This document shows positions 53,867 to 63,958 of a DNA stretch of 64,000 bases, piece by piece. Numbering within the stretch: position 1 is the first letter of the stretch; every line of letters begins with the position of its first letter. The translations under genes and the position numbers were made by a program. A model generated the notes under the pieces. It searched no databases. It saw nothing but the letters and a program-made list of their open reading frames with translations, and was not told the origin of the DNA. Source of the stretch: Gemmatimonas phototrophica. Its GTDB lineage: Bacteria; Gemmatimonadota; Gemmatimonadetes; Gemmatimonadales; Gemmatimonadaceae. The DNA lies in assembly GCF_000695095.2 (NCBI RefSeq), contig NZ_CP011454.1, positions 1,178,001-1,242,000 on the forward strand. Reading direction: 5' to 3'.

Positions 53867-54005
53867 GTGCCGACGAAGCACCTGCACCTCTCACCATCGT
53901 GGTTATCTCGACCCTCTCACATTCGAAATCCATCCCAATCTCTCACCTCACAACGCTCTCACCTCCAATTCTCACCGCTCAAGATCTCACCGTCTCACCT
54001 CTCCC
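53867..54005 (-). repeat. Dispersed TGAGA-type repeat, copy C (right arm of inverted pair)
   Basis: Reverse orientation. On the minus strand it reads GGAGGTGAGAGCGTTGTGA, then GGGATGGATTTCGAATGTG, GTCGAGATAACCACGA and GTGCAGGTGCTTCGTC. The end nearest the kinase gene encodes that protein's last residues (ETGEVRR) and its stop codon. Confidence 0.88.
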
Positions 54006-55936
54006 GTCTCCGGTCTCGCTCGTCGCTTGGTTGCGGTTGCCGCGGTGTCCAGCCAGCTCGCGACTTGCTGGCGCGCGAGTTCCATGCTTTTGCCCGGGTT
54101 TTCTCCGGCTGCCATCACATGCTCCATGACGCGCACAAACCGGCCCGTCTTTACATCGGTGAGTTTGGTGGCCACCACGAGCGAGTCGCCGCGGGTCGTG
54201 AGCCATCCGTTCACCAGAAAGTCGGCACGTAGCGCCCAGCCTGCGGCCATCTGATCCGGAGTCATGCGCACGGCACGTTCGGTGAGGTCCGGCGGCATTA
54301 CATCGTAGCGCTCTCCCGGAATGGCTGTGCGCATGAGGGTGGCCGCTTCGCGTGCGGTCGCGGCAAACTCCCGGCGACCGGTGGCGTTACTCCAGTTGGT
54401 CACCACCACGCGCAGTCGCCCATCACTTGGCGGAGCCACCAAGGGTGCCACGAACGTCATGGTGCGCGTGGAGCCCGGCGGGGATTCGGGGCGCGGCGGT
54501 TCCATGCGCAAGACGCGCGGCACGCGGGCCAGCGCAGAGTCCATGTGTTGAATGGCACGGCTCATCGAGTCGGAAAAAATCCGCCCGAGTTCGGACATGA
54601 GCAGTTCACGGTCGATCTCCGCCATCATGCCATTGCTCATACGTACCGCTACGCGCACCGCGCTCGTCTCCGCCAGGACTTTCGTGCCCGTAGCGCCTGC
54701 GGCGGTTGGGGCGGTCGCTGGGCGGGGAGGCTGCTGCGACTGCCGTTTCCGTATGGCATCGGCAATGGCCAGCGACTCGGCGCGGGTAATCACCAGTGGC
54801 ACGGCCGTGCTGCGGGCACCGTCGCTAATGTCGCGGAACACGGCTACGGTATCGCCGAGCATTCCCTGTGCGGTACCGGTGGTCCCGCGAACGGGGATAC
54901 TGTCGGTGACGGAGGCTGGAGGTGCACCCCCACCAGGGCCCGCATCGCGTGCATCGAGTGCCTCCAGTGACGCCGGCGCCTGCGGAACGTGCGGCAGCAC
55001 CGCCCAAACGACGGCCGCCACCGCGGCGAGTCCTGCGACCAGCAGGGCAGGGCGTGGCCGAGTGCGGCGCGGCGCCAGCGTGGCGCCACTTGTCATGGGC
55101 GGCAGGGCGTCGAGCTCGGCCAGCAGCAGCAGCGCGGATTGCGGTCGCCGGGCCGCATCCTTTTCGAGGCAGTGCATGATGAGCGAGGACAGGGGCTCAG
55201 GGATGTCACTGAACGAACGGTGCGGCGGCTCCGGCATCTGCGTGAGCTGTGCCGCCAGCGTGGCCTGCGGCGAGGACCCACTGAAGGGCGCCTTGCCCGT
55301 CAGCAGCTCATAGGCCAACAGTCCGACGGCATAGAGATCCACCCGGTGGTCGGCGGCGGGGTCGGCGGCCAGCTGTTCGGGGGCCATGTAGGCGGGGGTG
55401 CCGATTGCCATGCCGGTCGTCGTGCCCCCCTGCGCCGGACTGGCGGCGCTGAGCGCTTTGGCCACCCCGAAGTCGGTGACCAGGGCATGCATCCCGGACG
55501 TGAGGATGTTGTCAGGCTTGATGTCTCGATGGACCACCCCACGGGAGTGGGCATAGGCCAACGCATCAACCACGTCGTGCAGAATGCGCACCACATCGCG
55601 GGCGGAGAGCCGTTGCTGGCGCGTCAGGGTCCCCCGGAGTGATTCGCCGTCGATATAGGGCATAGAGAACCACAACAGCCCGGCATCGTCCCCAGCGGCG
55701 AGCAGGGGCACAATGTGCGGATGTTGCAGCTGGGCGGCCAGTTGGATTTCCCGCCGGAACCGCTCCACGTTGACGCCAGCCGCCAGATCGGGGGGGAGCA
55801 CCTTCACGACCACGCGGCGTCCCAGGGCGATTTCCGTAGCCACGAAGACCCGGGACATGCCGGCGCCCCCCAGTTCCCGCTCTAGGCGGAACTCGGACGC
55901 GAGGGCAGCCTGCAGACGTTGTTGGAAATCGCTCAC
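53987..55936 (-). CDS. PknB-type Ser/Thr protein kinase, membrane-anchored
   Basis: 649 residues. Kinase domain 17-280: glycine loop ELGGAGMSRVF, Lys45 (VVVKVLPPD), HRDIKPDN with catalytic Asp138, DFG, and GTPAYMAPEQL. A basic linker and one membrane span at about 298-318 follow, then an extracytoplasmic part (about 320-640) without PASTA repeats: an Ala/Pro linker and a domain with FVAPLVAPPSDGRLRVVVTNWSN and GWALRADFLVNGWLTTRGDSLVVATKLTD, resembling a TolB/CsgG-like sensor. GTG start at 55936. The last seven codons and the stop come from repeat C. It lies on the opposite strand between rpoC and rpsL. Confidence 0.88.
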   Translation of the reverse strand: MSDFQQRLQAALASEFRLERELGGAGMSRVFVATEIALGRRVVVKVLPPDLAAGVNVERFRREIQLAAQLQHPHIVPLLAAGDDAGLLWFSMPYIDGESLRGTLTRQQRLSARDVVRILHDVVDALAYAHSRGVVHRDIKPDNILTSGMHALVTDFGVAKALSAASPAQGGTTTGMAIGTPAYMAPEQLAADPAADHRVDLYAVGLLAYELLTGKAPFSGSSPQATLAAQLTQMPEPPHRSFSDIPEPLSSLIMHCLEKDAARRPQSALLLLAELDALPPMTSGATLAPRRTRPRPALLVAGLAAVAAVVWAVLPHVPQAPASLEALDARDAGPGGGAPPASVTDSIPVRGTTGTAQGMLGDTVAVFRDISDGARSTAVPLVITRAESLAIADAIRKRQSQQPPRPATAPTAAGATGTKVLAETSAVRVAVRMSNGMMAEIDRELLMSELGRIFSDSMSRAIQHMDSALARVPRVLRMEPPRPESPPGSTRTMTFVAPLVAPPSDGRLRVVVTNWSNATGRREFAATAREAATLMRTAIPGERYDVMPPDLTERAVRMTPDQMAAGWALRADFLVNGWLTTRGDSLVVATKLTDVKTGRFVRVMEHVMAAGENPGKSMELARQQVASWLDTAATATKRRARPETGEVRR

Positions 55937-57205: not shown

Positions 57206-57237
57206 ATCCGGCGCCGGAGTTTCTCCCCGCCGTCAGC

Positions 57238-57276
57238 AGCGCCCCGGATGCATGCATCCGGGGCGCTGTTTTTTGT
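57238..57276 (+). terminator. Terminator after rpsG
   Basis: A perfect 30-base palindrome (arms of 15) centred in GGATGCATGCATCC, then GTTTTTTGTTG. Confidence 0.95.
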
Positions 57277-57540
57277 TGTGACAGCGCATGGAAACCCGAA
57301 GACAGATCTGTGATCCCGGACACCGCGCCCACGCCCGAATGGCCCTACTTTTCGTCCGTGTGGGACCAAGGTCCATGTCACCCTCCCGGCACAAAAATCA
57401 CGCCCTGCCGATATGCCCAGAGGGAATCGGCGTTTCGCCACGGGCAATCGTTACGAAGCCGGACGAACTGTTTTGATAGCGGCCTGGAGTGTTGCGCCGC
57501 CGTACGCGTTGCGTCACGTTAGTAGAAGTGCGCGGGCCCC
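57277..57540. other. Intergenic stretch before the riboswitch
   Basis: No coding pattern. The promoter of the c-di-GMP-controlled transcript must lie here; no clear -35/-10 or -24/-12 pair was found. Confidence 0.4.
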
Positions 57541-57544
57541 GATT

Positions 57545-57640
57545 CCGGGGTCGCGAAACGGCAAACCTGGTGAAAGCCAGGGACGCAAAGCTACAGGGCT
57601 TACTCACACCACACGGTGTGGCTGCCGGCTGAGCTACCGA
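57545..57640 (+). promoter_or_regulatory. c-di-GMP-I (GEMM) riboswitch
   Basis: The class landmarks are present in order: GGCAAACCTGG, a GAAA tetraloop (CCTGGTGAAAGCCAGG stem), GGGACGCAAAGC, then TACAGGGCT, a variable stem CACACCACACGGTGTG, and the closing GGCTGCCGGCTGAGCTACCG. It ends 22 bases before the lipoprotein ATG. No obvious terminator stem lies between, so control may be on translation or mRNA stability. Exact ends are approximate. Confidence 0.92.
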
Positions 57641-57662
57641 ACGATCACAGAGGGATCAGGTC

Positions 57663-58481
57663 ATGCGTACTGCGAAGATGCAGTCGGTTGTTGGACAGGT
57701 ACGGAGACTGGGCGGAGTCGCCGTTGGCGGTGCTCTCATGCTGCTCGCATCCTGTCGGCCGGCGGTGTCGAGCGCCACGCTCAGCGCCGATATGGGCGCG
57801 GTCACAACGGCCGACGCCATTCTGGCCAACCCGGCCCGCCGCGATGACGCCAACCGCGTCCAGATGCTCCGGACGGCCAATCGCCTTCCGCGGGTGGCCT
57901 TCCCCCGAGTACGCCCCGACTGCCTGACCCAGGGCGAAGACTTCGGATTGTGGACGGTCCGCTTTGACGGCTACGGGTGCGTGGTCGTGAGCGGCAAGGG
58001 CAATCAGGGGACGCTGGCCATGGGCCCCAAGTCGGCCGAGAAGGGATGGCAGACCCACGCCCCCATGGTGCTTGGCCCCTCGTACGGCGACCACCTCATG
58101 CTCCACGCGCGGGTGGAAACCACCGCGCAGCTGCGTGATGGACAGCCGAATCCGTGGGAAGTGGCCTGGGTTATCTGGCAGTATGAAGACGATACGCGCT
58201 TCTACTACTTCATCCCCAAGCCCAACGGCTGGGAACTGGGCAAGCGCGATCCGGCCTACCCAGGTGGCCAGCGTTTCCTGGCTTCTGGAAATCGTGAGAA
58301 ATTCCCCATCGGGAAGGTCTACGATGTCACGATCGTGCAGGACGCCGACCGCATCGCCGTCTTTGTCGATGGCCGAGAGGTTGTGCGCACACGCGACGCC
58401 GAACAGCCGTACAAGAAGGGACGGATCGGCATCTATGCCGAAGACGCCGCCATCAAAGTGCACGCGGTGCGGGCGCTCTAG
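57663..58481 (+). CDS. Secreted lectin/glycosidase-fold lipoprotein under c-di-GMP control
   Basis: 272 residues: lipobox LLASC (Cys31), a linker to about 75, then a beta-sandwich domain (FGLWTVRFDGYGCVVVSG, HLMLHARVETTAQ, WEVAWVIWQYEDDTRFYYF, VYDVTIVQDADRIAVFVDG, GRIGIYAEDAAIKVHAVRAL). This strand pattern is that of LamG/DUF1080-like concanavalin folds that bind or cleave sugars; no catalytic pair can be assigned. Positioned between the riboswitch and nfrA, it is a good candidate for a polymer-binding or polymer-trimming partner of the glycan system. Confidence 0.75.
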   Translation: MRTAKMQSVVGQVRRLGGVAVGGALMLLASCRPAVSSATLSADMGAVTTADAILANPARRDDANRVQMLRTANRLPRVAFPRVRPDCLTQGEDFGLWTVRFDGYGCVVVSGKGNQGTLAMGPKSAEKGWQTHAPMVLGPSYGDHLMLHARVETTAQLRDGQPNPWEVAWVIWQYEDDTRFYYFIPKPNGWELGKRDPAYPGGQRFLASGNREKFPIGKVYDVTIVQDADRIAVFVDGREVVRTRDAEQPYKKGRIGIYAEDAAIKVHAVRAL

Positions 58482-58516
58482 CCTCTTTCACCGGTCGCCG
58501 GTTGCCATCCCTCGCC

Positions 58517-58546
58517 AACGCGCCACACCTCACCGTGTGGCGCGTT
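58517..58546 (+). terminator. Hairpin between the lipoprotein gene and nfrA
   Basis: AACGCGCCACAC, loop CTCACC, GTGTGGCGCGTT: perfect 12-base-pair stem, but followed only by CCTGTTGG. A weak or partial terminator; it decides how far riboswitch control reaches. Confidence 0.65.
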
Positions 58547-58782
58547 CCTGTTGGAGGCGCCCCGCGCCCCGGAAGGTGTCGGTCACTTCACTTGGGCGGC
58601 CAATGGCCTAACCCTTAGGTTGTTGCAACTGGCACAGCGGTGACGCGCACCACATTCCCGGCGTCTATCGCGAAAGTCACGCTCCGGGTAACGTTCCAAC
58701 CGCTACCGGCCCTGCCGACCTCTTCGGCTGGTCCTCGGCAACGGCGTCCCGAGGCCGGCCAGCGTACCCCTCCTCCGTCTCC
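58547..58782. other. Intergenic stretch before nfrA-like gene
   Basis: No gene is supported here. A TGGCAC word at 58630-58640 does not have the GG-N10-GC spacing of a sigma-54 promoter, and no good sigma-70 pair was found. Confidence 0.35.
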
Positions 58783-60117
58783 GTGCTGCTCAATCTTCGT
58801 GGTCTCCAGGCGCGCCGCGGCGTCTCATGTGCGGCCGCAATTGTCGTGGCGCTGGCCAGCATGTGGTTGGCGCCAATGGCCGTCGCCCAGGCGCAGGATG
58901 CGCCTGCAGATCGGTACGCCACCGCCATGAACGTGGCCTATGCCGCCCGCCAGCGTGGTGATACCGCCAGCGCCCGCGAGTACTTTACCCGCGCCATTGC
59001 GGTCGATAGCACCCAGGCGGCGCCCCACATTGAGCTGGGCTACCTCGAGCTCGCTGGCGGCAACAAGCCCTCGGCGGCTCGCTGGTTCTCGCAGGGCGCG
59101 GCGCTCGCCCCGCAGAACGCCGATGTACGTCGGCAGTTGGGCTATGTGCTCATTGATCTGCGCCGGACTGACGACGCGATCAAGGCGCTCGAGAGCATCG
59201 GGACCACCCCCAGTGGCTACACCGATCGCGACCGGTTGGCGTTGGCGTACTTGTATGACAGCGCCACGCGGAACGCCGAAGCCCTCGAGGCGTTCCGGGC
59301 GGCCGCGCTCAGCGCCGATACCGGCGTGGCCAATCCGGCCCGACGTGCGCTGCGCGTGAAGGGGGATGTCGGGACGGTGCTCTTCTCCGAAGGCTACCTC
59401 GCCCCGTTTTACCAGTCGCGTTTCGATAACGCCATTGGCTTTGGCTTTCTGCGTCACGGCATTGAAAGCGGCGCGTCCTGGGCGCCGGCGGCCTACACGT
59501 CGTTGCGCGTGACGCGGGACAGCAAGTCTACGGGCGGCGGCGGGCAGTCGCGCGTGCTTTCCGATAACGCGGCCATCCTTGCCGGTGGGGTCCGTGTGCG
59601 CCCCTGGCACGGACCGTTATGGCTGTATGCAGAAGCGGGCGGGGCGTATTCACTTCTGACCAATGACACCACCAGCTGGCGCCGTGATGTGCGCGCCGGT
59701 GGTTATCTCATTGCCCAGGATGAGCGTCGGCTGGTACGCGATGCCAACTGGAAACTGCTCACCGACATTGCGGCCGATGTGAGCTGGTACGAACGCTTCG
59801 ACAAGAACGTGATTGGCTACGCGCTGTTGCGCGAAGGCGTGCGCTTTGGCACGCCCGGCAAGCTGGCGCTCGATCTGTTTGGGCGCGGCTGGGTGGGATA
59901 CGACAGCCGCGGTGACTTTTTCAACCGGGCCGCTGAGAGTGGCGGTGGTGCCGCGTTGCGGGTGGGGCCGCATTTCGTGCTGTTTACTGAAGGCATTTAC
60001 GGACGATTCTTCGAGCAGCCGACGCCCGGGGTCAAGCGTCGGTATCAGGAGTGGCGTGTGACGGCCGTGTGGGGATGGCGGGCGCTCAAGCCCCTTCGTG
60101 AGGGGGGCGCACGATGA
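58783..60117 (+). CDS. NfrA-like TPR/outer-membrane exporter
   Basis: 444 residues. Signal peptide to about residue 38 (AAAIVVALASMWLAPMAVAQAQ), TPR units (YATAMNVAYAARQRGDTASAREYFTRAI, APHIELGYLELAGGNKPSAARWF, ADVRRQLGYVLIDLRRTDDAIKAL), then a C-terminal beta-barrel-like region (about 200-444) with alternating strands and a final aromatic strand (YQEWRVTAVWGWRAL). This is the plan of E. coli NfrA (phage N4 receptor) and of other TPR-porin polysaccharide exporters. GTG start; no better upstream start. It shares ATGA with the nfrB-like gene. Confidence 0.8.
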   Translation: MLLNLRGLQARRGVSCAAAIVVALASMWLAPMAVAQAQDAPADRYATAMNVAYAARQRGDTASAREYFTRAIAVDSTQAAPHIELGYLELAGGNKPSAARWFSQGAALAPQNADVRRQLGYVLIDLRRTDDAIKALESIGTTPSGYTDRDRLALAYLYDSATRNAEALEAFRAAALSADTGVANPARRALRVKGDVGTVLFSEGYLAPFYQSRFDNAIGFGFLRHGIESGASWAPAAYTSLRVTRDSKSTGGGGQSRVLSDNAAILAGGVRVRPWHGPLWLYAEAGGAYSLLTNDTTSWRRDVRAGGYLIAQDERRLVRDANWKLLTDIAADVSWYERFDKNVIGYALLREGVRFGTPGKLALDLFGRGWVGYDSRGDFFNRAAESGGGAALRVGPHFVLFTEGIYGRFFEQPTPGVKRRYQEWRVTAVWGWRALKPLREGGAR

Positions 60118-61658
60118 CCGGTTTGGAAATGGCCGTCATTGTCATCGCGGTGTTCTACCTGATCTTTGCGATCGATGACCTGTTGTTCGATGTGACGTTC
60201 TGGTTGGGCAAGATCTTCGGCTGGTGGAAGCGCCCAACGGTGACGGTCAAGGAACTGCGTGACGTGAGCGAGTGGCGTATTGCCATCGTGACGCCCGCGT
60301 GGAAGGAAGACGACGTCATCGCGCGCATGCTCCTGTATAATCTGCCGCGACTGGACTACCAGCGGTATGACTACTGGATCGGGACGTATCAGAACGATCC
60401 GGACACTCGTCGTGAAGTGGACAAGGTGCGCGCGATCTATCCGAACGTGCGCAAGGTGACCACGACCAACGATGGCCCCACCTCCAAGGCGGACTGCGTC
60501 AACACGGTACTGCAGGCCATTGTGGAGCATGAACAGCGGGCCGGCCTGCGCTACGACCTCATCGTGTTTCATGATGTGGAGGACCTGGTGCATCCGCAGG
60601 AGCTGCGGTTGCTCAACTGGTACTTCCGCAACGATGACGTGGACTTCGTGCAATTGCCCGTGTTGTCCACGCCGCCGTTCTGGTATGACTTCGTGGCCGG
60701 TACGTACATCGACGAATTCGCCGAGATGTACACGAAGAACATGTTCGTCCGTGAGAAGGTCTGGGGCTTCGTGCCATCGGCCGGTGTGGCCACGTGTGTG
60801 CGCCGGACTGTCATTGATCAGCTCATGGAAGAGCGTAACGGGACGCCGTTCGCGACCAATTCGCTCACCGAAGACTACGATCTGGGACTTGGTCTCACGG
60901 TGCAGGGGCGTCCCACGCGGTATCTGCATCAGTACGTGCAGATCGACGAAGATGACAAGAATTCGGAAGAACTGATTGCCACGTGGGCTCCGTTCCCCCA
61001 GACGTTCCGTACCGCGGTGCGTCAGCGCACGCGCTGGATGGCCGGCATCGTGTTTCAGGGGTGGGAGCATTGGGGCTGGCCCAAGGGGCTCAGCTGGCTG
61101 CTGGCGCACGATCGTCGTGGCCCGCTGGGCTATCTCGTGGTGCTCGCCGGCTATCTGCTGCTGCTGTACTTCGTGGCGTACGAATGGGTCCGGGTGTTTT
61201 ACGATCGTGGGCTTCCCGAAATGCTTGAAGAGCCATGGTTCGCGTGGCTGTTCTGGATCGGGTTGTTCTTCATGTGCAACCGCCTCATTCAGCGCGCCAT
61301 CAGTACCGGCAAGCTGTACGGCTTTGGTCAGGCGCTGCTCTCGATCTTCCGGACGCCCTTCTCGAACATCGTGAACATGGTGGCCACCTTCCGGGCGGCC
61401 AATCAGTACTTCAAGTCGCGTCGCACCGGTATTCCCATGAGCTGGGACAAAACCGAACACTCATTGCCGCCGCAGGTTGGCGCACAGATGCGTCTCGGCG
61501 AGAAGCTCATCGAAGACAAGAAGCTCACCACGCAGCAGCTCGTGCTGGCGCTCAAGGAGCAGCGCGAAAAGGGTGGTCAGCTGGGCGCCATTCTGGTGAA
61601 GCAAGGTGCTGTGTCACGTGACGATGTGGAAACCGTTGTGAGGAATACCCGCGCATGA
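60114..61658 (+). CDS. NfrB-like c-di-GMP-responsive glycosyltransferase
   Basis: 514 residues. N-terminal membrane span (6-25), a family-2 glycosyltransferase domain with IVTPAWKEDDVIARML, the metal site FHDVEDLVH, the acceptor motif SLTEDYDLG and the processive motif RQRTRWMAGIVFQG, then three to four membrane spans (about 340-410) and a C-terminal MshEN-type domain (about 462-512, RLGEKLIEDKKLTTQQ, then LGAILVKQGAVSRDD). MshEN domains bind c-di-GMP. E. coli NfrB has the same order and makes an N-acetylmannosamine polymer activated by c-di-GMP. Start ATGA overlap with nfrA-like; stop ATGA overlap with wecB. Confidence 0.88.
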   Translation: MTGLEMAVIVIAVFYLIFAIDDLLFDVTFWLGKIFGWWKRPTVTVKELRDVSEWRIAIVTPAWKEDDVIARMLLYNLPRLDYQRYDYWIGTYQNDPDTRREVDKVRAIYPNVRKVTTTNDGPTSKADCVNTVLQAIVEHEQRAGLRYDLIVFHDVEDLVHPQELRLLNWYFRNDDVDFVQLPVLSTPPFWYDFVAGTYIDEFAEMYTKNMFVREKVWGFVPSAGVATCVRRTVIDQLMEERNGTPFATNSLTEDYDLGLGLTVQGRPTRYLHQYVQIDEDDKNSEELIATWAPFPQTFRTAVRQRTRWMAGIVFQGWEHWGWPKGLSWLLAHDRRGPLGYLVVLAGYLLLLYFVAYEWVRVFYDRGLPEMLEEPWFAWLFWIGLFFMCNRLIQRAISTGKLYGFGQALLSIFRTPFSNIVNMVATFRAANQYFKSRRTGIPMSWDKTEHSLPPQVGAQMRLGEKLIEDKKLTTQQLVLALKEQREKGGQLGAILVKQGAVSRDDVETVVRNTRA

Positions 61659-62851
61659 GCAAATCCCGGTGGTTGACTCCCATGCGCGGCGGCGCCCCCG
61701 CCGTGCGTGCCACGCCCAATGTGGCGGTGATCGTGGGCACCCGTCCCGAAGTCATCAAGATGGCGCCAGTGGTACGGGCGCTGCGGGCGTCCACCAGCGT
61801 GACCTGTACGGTGGTCAGCACGGGGCAGCACCGTGACCTGCTGGTGCGCGCGTTCGAAGACGTGGGGCTGGTGCCCGACATCGAGCTGTCGCTCATGACG
61901 GAGAATCAGTCGCCCAGTGCCTTTGTGGCGCGCTGCATCACCGCGCTGGACGACGTGTTTGCGCAGAACAAGCCGCAGGCGGTTCTGGTGCAAGGCGACA
62001 CCAGCAGCGCCTGCGCCGGGGCCATGGCGGCCACGTGGCGCTCCATCCCCGTGGGGCATGTGGAAGCCGGCCTGCGCTCCTTCAATTTTCAGGAGCCGTT
62101 CCCGGAAGAGTTCCACCGTCGCGTGGTGGGTGTGGCAGCGCAGTGGCATTTTGCCCCCACGCCGGAGAGCCGCGACAACCTGCTGCGCGAAGGCGTCCCC
62201 ATGCACCGCATCTTCATGACCGGCAATACCATTGTGGATGCCGTGAAGCAGATGGATGTGTCGCGCCCGTTCGAAAATCGCCTGCTGGATGCGGTGCCCG
62301 AGGGGCGCCTGGCGCTCGTTACGGCGCATCGGCGGGAGAACCAGGGCGAGTCCATGCGGGATATCGCCCGTGCCGTCAAGCGGCTGGTGGCGGCCGTGGC
62401 GGACTTGCAGGTGGTGCTGCCGCTGCACCCCAATCCCAATGTGCGCGGGCTTTTTCAGCAGGAGCTGGGGGATACGCCGCGGGTGCACCTGCTGGAGCCG
62501 CTCAGCTATCCCGACCTGCTGAAGGTCCTGCACAAGAGCACGATCATCCTGTCCGACTCGGGCGGATTGCAGGAGGAGGCCCCCAGTGTGGGGCGTCCCA
62601 TTCTCATTTTGCGGGAACGCACCGAGCGCCCGGAAGTGGTGCAGGTGGGGGCAGGCATTCTGGTGGGTACCGATCCCGATCTCATCGTAAAGGAAGCGCT
62701 GTCCATTTTGTGCGACCCGGTGGTGTACGAGCGCATGGTCACGGTGCCCAACCCGTTTGGTGACGGCAAGGCGTCGGCCCGCATCACGGAAATCCTGGAG
62801 TCCTCGCTGTGCGAGGAAGCGGATTTGCCGGTGATGTCGATGGTGCTGTAA
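61655..62851 (+). CDS. wecB: UDP-N-acetylglucosamine 2-epimerase (non-hydrolysing)
   Basis: Interconverts UDP-GlcNAc and UDP-ManNAc. 398 residues: VGTRPEVIKMAPVVRAL, VQGDTSSACAGAMAA, GHVEAGLRSFNF, PEEFHRRVV, TAHRRENQGES and DSGGLQEEAPSVGRP, all family hallmarks, with a ~25-residue N-terminal extension. Being translationally coupled to the NfrB-like gene, it most likely supplies the UDP-ManNAc substrate. In E. coli wecB is essential for the same glycan but is encoded elsewhere. Confidence 0.95.
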   Translation: MSKSRWLTPMRGGAPAVRATPNVAVIVGTRPEVIKMAPVVRALRASTSVTCTVVSTGQHRDLLVRAFEDVGLVPDIELSLMTENQSPSAFVARCITALDDVFAQNKPQAVLVQGDTSSACAGAMAATWRSIPVGHVEAGLRSFNFQEPFPEEFHRRVVGVAAQWHFAPTPESRDNLLREGVPMHRIFMTGNTIVDAVKQMDVSRPFENRLLDAVPEGRLALVTAHRRENQGESMRDIARAVKRLVAAVADLQVVLPLHPNPNVRGLFQQELGDTPRVHLLEPLSYPDLLKVLHKSTIILSDSGGLQEEAPSVGRPILILRERTERPEVVQVGAGILVGTDPDLIVKEALSILCDPVVYERMVTVPNPFGDGKASARITEILESSLCEEADLPVMSMVL

Positions 62852-63025: not shown

Positions 63026-63041
63026 TGGCACGGCTTATGCT
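63026..63041 (+). promoter_or_regulatory. Sigma-54 (-24/-12) promoter of the second PEP-CTERM gene
   Basis: TGGCACGGCTTATGCT: GG at 63027-63028, 10 bases, GC at 63039-63040; full -24 element TGGCACG, -12 element ATGCT instead of TTGCA. The expected start is about 63052, giving a 50-base leader. Confidence 0.75.
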
Positions 63042-63103: not shown

Positions 63104-63958
63104 ATGCTTCGCACGTCGTCCCGTATCGCCACAACCGTTCGCCTTGCCATTGGTGTGAGCAGCGTTCTGCTTGCGTCCACCGAGGCCGCTGCGCAGACCT
63201 ATAGCGATTTCGGCTCGGTGACTACCGCTCCTACGAGTGGTGTCTGTAAGAACTGGGGCAATGAGGGGTTCGGCCCGAAATCTGGTGGCCTCACCTGGTA
63301 CAACGCGTACCTGCTCAACGTGCCCGAATACTTCAATTGCTGGACAAAGGCGCCAGCGGTCACCGGGTATCCGTCCAATTCAAAGCTGGCGATCCTGACG
63401 TCGACCCCCCTGCAGGTCCAGATGGATACGTTTAATCCGTTCTTCCTGCACAGCCTCAAGGTGGGATCGGGGTGGACGAACGACGCGATCCTGACGCTGA
63501 ACGGCTACATGGGTGACGTCAACAACAAGACGCTGCAGTTCAGCCAGACCCTGACCAATCTTGACGCGAACGCCCCGATGGCGGATTCGTGGAAGATCGA
63601 CAATCAGGGGAAGGCCATTACCTACTTTACCCTCAGCGTCAACTACAATCTTGCCGGCGCTCCAGCGTGGAATCCGGTGGATGCGAACTGTCTGTACGCG
63701 ACCGCCCCAGCTGACGTGGCGAATTGCGCGGTGCCGGCGTGGGGCCAGGACCCGTACAACTCCCGCCTCTATCAGTGGCAGGTTGATCGCTCCATCGGCA
63801 TGGGGGCCAATGCCCGTACGACGCTTCCCTACCAGACCATTTGGGTCGCTGGGGTTGAGACGTCTTCGGTCGTCCCCGAGCCGAGCACCTATGCCCTGAT
63901 GGGCGCGGGTCTGCTGGCGCTGGGTGTGGCCTCGCGCCGCCGCCGGAAGCAGGGCTGA
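63104..63958 (+). CDS. PEP-CTERM sorted secreted protein
   Basis: 284 residues: signal peptide 1-30 (cleavage near AAAQ), a mature beta-rich domain with three Cys (SGVCKNW, FNCWTK, NCLYATAP), and at 257 onward the sorting tag VPEPSTYALMGAGLLALGVA followed by SRRRRKQG. Same tag and same promoter class as the protein at 26323, but no evident similarity in the mature domain. Located next to the glycan locus, in keeping with the link between PEP-CTERM/exosortase systems and exopolysaccharide. Confidence 0.9.
   Translation: MLRTSSRIATTVRLAIGVSSVLLASTEAAAQTYSDFGSVTTAPTSGVCKNWGNEGFGPKSGGLTWYNAYLLNVPEYFNCWTKAPAVTGYPSNSKLAILTSTPLQVQMDTFNPFFLHSLKVGSGWTNDAILTLNGYMGDVNNKTLQFSQTLTNLDANAPMADSWKIDNQGKAITYFTLSVNYNLAGAPAWNPVDANCLYATAPADVANCAVPAWGQDPYNSRLYQWQVDRSIGMGANARTTLPYQTIWVAGVETSSVVPEPSTYALMGAGLLALGVASRRRRKQG

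Follow-up and report, generated by a model that had tools for sequence, protein, structure and literature searches.

A probable Nfr-type surface-glycan cassette with a predicted c-di-GMP riboswitch inside the str operon of Gemmatimonas phototrophica

How might a single signal, cyclic dimeric guanosine monophosphate (c-di-GMP), be read twice within one surface-glycan locus, and which genes would each of the two sensors serve? The question is raised by a locus of Gemmatimonas phototrophica in the window analysed here, a stretch of 64,000 nucleotides (bases 1178001-1242000 of NZ_CP011454.1, the one contig of 4.72 Mb that makes up the genome). On its plus strand, which carries all features described below unless stated otherwise, rpsL, rpsG and a terminator are followed by a riboswitch and by genes for a lipoprotein, an NfrA-like protein, an NfrB-like protein, WecB and a PEP-CTERM protein, and fusA and tuf lie immediately past the window's downstream end. 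The original prediction had described the part from the riboswitch to wecB and suggested that c-di-GMP may act on RNA and on enzyme. The observation is right and is stronger than first stated, in that the arrangement is conserved across two genera. We consider it reasonably probable that we are dealing with a self-contained surface-glycan cassette of the Nfr type, in which two c-di-GMP inputs are split, the RNA serving the lipoprotein and the enzyme domain serving the synthase. The gene content, overlaps, motifs, aptamer, conservation and spacing on which this reading is built are taken directly from the sequence.

Conservation of the locus and its aptamer

Our survey covered 298 genomes of the phylum. 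The NfrB query had matches in 74 of them, with full-length NfrB in seven and the MshEN stretch alone in nearly all others, and each of the seven full NfrB genes was preceded on its own strand, at a distance of 2.3-2.6 kb, by a match to the c-di-GMP-I family RF01051. Two further congeners were added, giving nine readable loci that encode NfrB with MshEN. The riboswitch, the lipoprotein, the NfrA-like protein and NfrB were present in 9/9 of these, in two genera of the family, and wecB and the PEP-CTERM gene followed in eight, the contig of the ninth stopping there. The aptamer also stood in front of the lipoprotein gene in three further partial loci from metagenome-assembled genomes (MAGs). In one of these three (G321, contig C35), the lipoprotein gene is followed by a wecB remnant, with nfrA and nfrB missing between them, which is either an internal deletion or a MAG assembly artefact. 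A divergent NfrB (40% identical; G302, contig C198) ends before MshEN and has an NfrA-like gene on the same contig; a c-di-GMP-I aptamer was not found on this 11-kb contig.

The c-di-GMP-I (GEMM-I) riboswitch aptamer of the window occupies 57551-57642. The covariance search gave 67.3 bits for RF01051 (gathering threshold 35) and 60.0 bits for the variant family RF03167 (threshold 59), with E-values of about 1e-13 to 1e-11, in agreement with the class originally named. This is the only RF01051 match in the whole genome, which encodes 12 GGDEF domains. The outer P1 helix is formed by GGUC (57549-57552) and GAUC (57643-57646). The diagnostic stretch reads GACGCAAAG, the class-I letters, in all nine loci, and G20, A47 and C92 (Vc2 numbering), which we take to be the ligand-contacting positions, are kept in every one. 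Over the nine leaders, 98.0% of the helix cells are paired and 18 cells carry double changes; the covariation score of 0.342 compares with 0.189 for shuffles, none of 500 shuffles scored as high, and slid versions scored far lower. Because the class-I stretch and these three positions are kept in nine loci, the RNA is, as far as its sequence tells, an ordinary c-di-GMP-I aptamer, and it would be expected to bind c-di-GMP.

Elsewhere in the phylum, many c-di-GMP-I riboswitches were seen by eye to lie 8-25 nucleotides before lipoprotein-like genes, often with immunoglobulin-like repeats, and others precede genes for response-regulator-like proteins.

Two probable inputs for one signal

In the mechanism that we propose, c-di-GMP would switch NfrB, a membrane synthase of glycosyltransferase family 2 (GT2), at its C-terminal MshEN domain. 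WecB would supply the precursor, most likely uridine diphosphate N-acetylmannosamine (UDP-ManNAc), NfrB would polymerise the sugar, and the protein with tetratricopeptide repeats (TPRs) and a barrel would carry the chain out through the outer membrane. Independently of the input at NfrB, the riboswitch would act on a ribosome-binding site and control translation of the cassette-specific lipoprotein, which has a sugar-binding-type fold and probably holds or handles the polymer. The genes nfrA-nfrB-wecB would be transcribed from their own promoter and the PEP-CTERM gene from a sigma-54 promoter.

The position of the aptamer suggests which gene the RNA serves. It lies 20 nucleotides upstream of the lipoprotein gene in the window, and in 9/9 loci the distance from its conserved 3' end to the start codon is 17-24 nucleotides. 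This spacing is too close for a terminator and points to control of lipoprotein translation. A Shine-Dalgarno (SD)-like AGAGGG follows the aptamer directly (57649-57654) and is the presumed expression platform. The riboswitch transcript has a putative sigma-70-type promoter at 57492-57520 (TTGCGC, 17 nucleotides, CACGTT); its match to the consensus is weak, and its hexamers and spacing are kept in six congeners. An assignment of the switch as ON or OFF from leader folding was dropped on account of too variable SD accessibility.

The lipoprotein (57663-58481) has the lipobox LASC, and its AlphaFold2 model is a beta jelly roll (predicted local distance difference test score, pLDDT, 77.8) whose best solved match in Foldseek is CBM66, which agrees with the sugar-binding fold that had been claimed. 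Two more specific labels were rejected: homology to YbcH (hhalign probability 0.3%) and membership of the 3-keto-disaccharide hydrolases (PF06439; 22.9 against a gathering cut-off of 26.8). Among the 298 genomes this family was found beside nfrB, and elsewhere there were just two partial matches (E 3e-4 and 8e-4).

Between the lipoprotein gene and nfrA is a gap of about 300 nucleotides, which holds a hairpin at 58517-58546 with a stem of 12 bp. Hairpins of 10-13 bp follow the lipoprotein gene in six of the nine loci, and in the two closest relatives (G328 and G325) they are terminator-like, with T-rich tails. Further downstream, an alignment of eight congeners revealed a conserved bipartite element (58629-58700; CGGTGAC, 16 nucleotides, CGTCTATCGC ... 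GTCAC ... GGTA), a probable separate promoter of nfrA. In its best block, from 58662, 19 of 30 columns are invariant, compared to 50 of 363 across the gap. The genome has no second copy of it within 2 mismatches, and it is not a genome-wide motif; with its GTGAC and GTCAC half-sites it may serve as promoter, as operator or in both roles. A sigma-54 site before nfrA was rejected, as the conserved CTGGCAC lacks a GC at the right distance.

The spacing, the hairpin in most loci and the conserved element before nfrA together argue for direct RNA control of the lipoprotein and not of nfrA-nfrB-wecB. The most economical reading is that these three genes most likely have their own promoter, with some read-through possible. 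With such promoters before nfrA and before the PEP-CTERM gene, the riboswitch would act on the lipoprotein and not on the operon as a whole, and it is probable that the riboswitch sets the lipoprotein only and MshEN sets the enzyme. Of the idea that c-di-GMP acts twice, the two inputs in one locus are therefore supported and riboswitch control of the whole nfr operon is not; the accompanying caveat, that the hairpin and the gap may limit the riboswitch to the lipoprotein, appears right.

The other three genes are joined by exact ATGA overlaps (60114-60117 and 61655-61658), just as had been noted. The NfrA-like protein (58783-60117, start codon GTG) has a signal peptide, TPRs and a predicted outer-membrane barrel; in its model (pLDDT 83.5) TPR helices precede a barrel of 12 strands, and among solved folds BcsC (9b8a) matches best. 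The NfrB-type GT2 synthase (60114-61658) keeps the HDxED, TED and QxxRW motifs of processive GT2 enzymes, common to E. coli NfrB. Its terminal MshEN domain, also claimed at the outset, was recognized by NF053729 at residues 460-508 (46.7 bits, cut-off 38), matches PilB/PilF chains in the PDB and keeps the LG pairs. The NfrB equivalog model NF008411 gave 421.7 bits over residues 3-506 against a cut-off of 1170; to judge from this score the protein is an NfrB homologue, not an equivalog, and it is without the region of E. coli NfrB past MshEN. WecB (61655-62851) is clearly assigned by its profile scores as a non-hydrolysing UDP-N-acetylglucosamine (UDP-GlcNAc) 2-epimerase: TIGR00236 gave 421.1 bits against an equivalog cut-off of 210.15 and the NeuC model 93.7, and the best solved relatives are 4fkz and 1o6c. 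WecB is thus present and linked to nfrB as described, and we infer that the polymer is ManNAc-based.

Several findings weigh against this reading. SD accessibility computed without ligand ranged from 0.05 to 0.74 among the loci, too wide a variation to favour one direction or mechanism of switching. The tail of the window hairpin, CCTGTTGG, is no proper U-run and the terminator scan gives no call, and in one locus (G217) the gap is 92 nucleotides and has no hairpin. The genome has a second wecB, so UDP-ManNAc could also come from an enzyme other than the WecB of the locus. The barrel of the NfrA-like protein is small at 12 strands, and hhalign aligned only 71 TPR columns with E. coli NfrA, with a weak probability of 27%; the proposed NfrA-like TPR/porin thus holds in its architecture and hardly in sequence homology. 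The MshEN consensus consists of two 24-residue RLG...L...L..Q motifs with a 5-residue linker (PMC5013675). Motif I of the NfrB-like protein has the RLG, L, L and Q with K for the central Gly, and motif II has QLG with V, V and T in place of L, L and Q. E. coli NfrB, a c-di-GMP binder, likewise departs from the consensus in motif I. Because of these departures, c-di-GMP binding by the NfrB-like C terminus is likely, not assured.

Read-through into nfrA is possible because of the poor tail and the hairpin-free gap, and these two features, together with the gene order and strand kept in 9/9 loci, would fit a single transcript in which the riboswitch controls lipoprotein-nfrA-nfrB-wecB and c-di-GMP determines how much synthase is made as well as how active it is. 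We consider this fairly unlikely, in view of an aptamer that touches the ribosome-binding site of the lipoprotein gene, so that its direct effect would be on translation of that gene, and of the T-rich hairpin tails in the closest relatives and the promoter-like element conserved before nfrA. It is highly improbable that the RNA is instead a c-di-GMP-I-GGC variant (RF03167) with another ligand or behaviour, which would remove the c-di-GMP input at the RNA level. RF03167 is indeed the family reported for the window and for G054 and G078 after clan competition. However, RF01051 has the higher bit score in the window, RF01051 is the call in four relatives, and none of the nine leaders contains the -GGC stretch GACGCGAAG; this candidate was rejected.

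The remaining alternatives concern what the neighbours have to do with each other. Lipoprotein-like genes under riboswitch control occur frequently in the phylum, and the riboswitch and the nfr genes could be neighbours through shared ancestry of the site, with the lipoprotein serving another c-di-GMP process such as adhesion. This seems quite unlikely to us: the lipoprotein family is practically confined to the neighbourhood of nfrB, and the linkage spans two genera with NfrB only about 60% identical, the cassette being gained and lost as a whole. Somewhat less unlikely is a polymer that is not ManNAc-based, with WecB feeding another surface glycan and standing behind nfrB as part of a wecB-containing glycan locus as such. 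The second wecB would agree with this, as would a WecB, 46% identical, beside an unrelated PgaC-like synthase in other cassettes at the same site (type B, below), but the nfrB-wecB overlap is kept in congeners and E. coli genetics tie NfrB to WecB (PMC8669469, PMC8669472). We retain the split of the two inputs between lipoprotein and synthase.

A variable site within the str operon

A canonical intrinsic terminator after rpsG (57235-57270; 16-bp stem and T-run in the terminator scan) insulates the cassette from the str operon. The nfr cassette lies behind rpsG in 9/9 loci, and fusA follows wherever the downstream sequence suffices; with rpsG before it and fusA after it, the cassette splits the operon. 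In a census of 29 congeners with rpsG, this position held nfr (type A) in nine, a type B cassette in 14, type C in four and fusA directly in one (G320), one being unclassified. Non-nfr cassettes of types B and C stood between rpsG and fusA in G019, G067, G249, G324, G180, G269, G111, G171 and G218. Type B, defined from G019 and matched in other congeners, encodes the WecB mentioned above, a PgaC-like synthase, a bactofilin-like protein, in some congeners a YaiO-barrel protein, and a PEP-CTERM protein in G019 and G067. In type C (G111, G324), one protein has a PEP-CTERM-like end, and the cassette also contains large unassigned open reading frames.

On a RpoB DNA tree of 22 congeners, a quick tree with no outgroup from a gene about 10 kb from the site, the three types are interspersed and need five changes, the least possible being two. 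Type A needs three, and the starred branches force at least two. By this count the types have been exchanged more than once, and cassettes have been swapped at rpsG-fusA. Exchange at this site suggests that a translation operon anchors a variable surface locus, which is a possible site of phage-driven diversity.

The linked sixth element of the nfr cassette is a gene for a PEP-CTERM surface protein (63104-63958; PF07589/TIGR02595), and in 8/8 loci the gene after wecB encodes a related protein. A sigma-54-like -24/-12 site, TGGCACGGCTTATGC, is at 63026-63040, and similar sites occur 61-130 nucleotides upstream of the gene in all eight nfr loci (background 0.06 per 360 nucleotides). The gene most likely has a sigma-54 promoter, judging from this recurrence. 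No such site turned up before the PEP-CTERM-type genes in cassettes of types B and C. The genome encodes one exosortase. PMC9850573 reportedly connects an RpoN-dependent PEP-CTERM gene with floc formation. The str-operon location, the swapped cassettes and the sigma-54-linked PEP-CTERM gene are new beyond the first observation and lie partly outside the window.

A broader proposal, which we regard as possible and short of probable, is that the str operon harbours a swappable, serotype-like glycan locus in which every allele comes with a PEP-CTERM protein of its own. One of these alleles would then be a c-di-GMP device with two inputs, its RNA and enzyme sensors differing in affinity. If this were true, the sugar-binding lipoprotein and the polymer would appear at different c-di-GMP levels. 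As a side observation, a minus-strand gene for a serine/threonine kinase-like protein (53987-55936) adjoins rpsL and is kept at most rpsL loci examined.

Comparison with known systems

We found no paper on Gemmatimonas, c-di-GMP and riboswitches together in the open-access literature, which is weak evidence of absence, and a term search of the main text of a G. phototrophica transcriptome paper (PMC11406998) returned no start-site data, c-di-GMP or glycosyltransferase. The findings extend the Nfr glycan system, which in E. coli is known as the receptor of phage N4, to a phylum not named in two Nfr papers. They also place an RNA-level c-di-GMP sensor beside an enzyme-level one, and a division of work between two sensors of one signal thereby becomes testable.

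The closest counterpart is nfrBA-ybcH with wecB of E. coli (NGR/phage N4 receptor; PMC8669469, PMC8669472), which shares the GT2 synthase with MshEN, the TPR/barrel exporter and the requirement for WecB. In comparison, the order here is nfrA-nfrB instead of nfrB-nfrA, NfrB has 514 residues and ends after MshEN whereas that of E. coli has 745, NfrA has 444 residues compared to 990, and a jelly-roll lipoprotein takes the place of a YbcH homologue. The wecB gene within the locus, the riboswitch and the PEP-CTERM partner are further differences, and the phylum is another one. The nfr operons of other bacteria are alike in the linkage of wecB to nfrB and in a local c-di-GMP input: a survey that looked beyond E. 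coli, at 406 species, found nfrB linked with wecB or a GGDEF gene (PMC8669469, Fig. 7). The dedicated epimerase that the original prediction placed in the operon is therefore present and is no novelty, because such linkage had already been published. That survey has no riboswitch in its text and names no Gemmatimonadota.

Other c-di-GMP-I riboswitches (GEMM-I, RF01051) share the aptamer core and the position before a gene for a secreted protein, but here the riboswitch accompanies a glycan synthase with a c-di-GMP domain of its own. The cellulose (BcsA/BcsC) and poly-N-acetylglucosamine (PgaC/PgaA) systems likewise combine a c-di-GMP-activated synthase with a TPR/barrel exporter, whereas the present locus has MshEN instead of PilZ, a predicted barrel of 12 strands and wecB. 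Capsule and O-antigen loci carry alternative glycan cassettes between fixed flanks, and these are exchanged between lineages. The site described here resembles them in holding alternative cassettes at one position, with rpsG and fusA as its flanks, inside the str operon.

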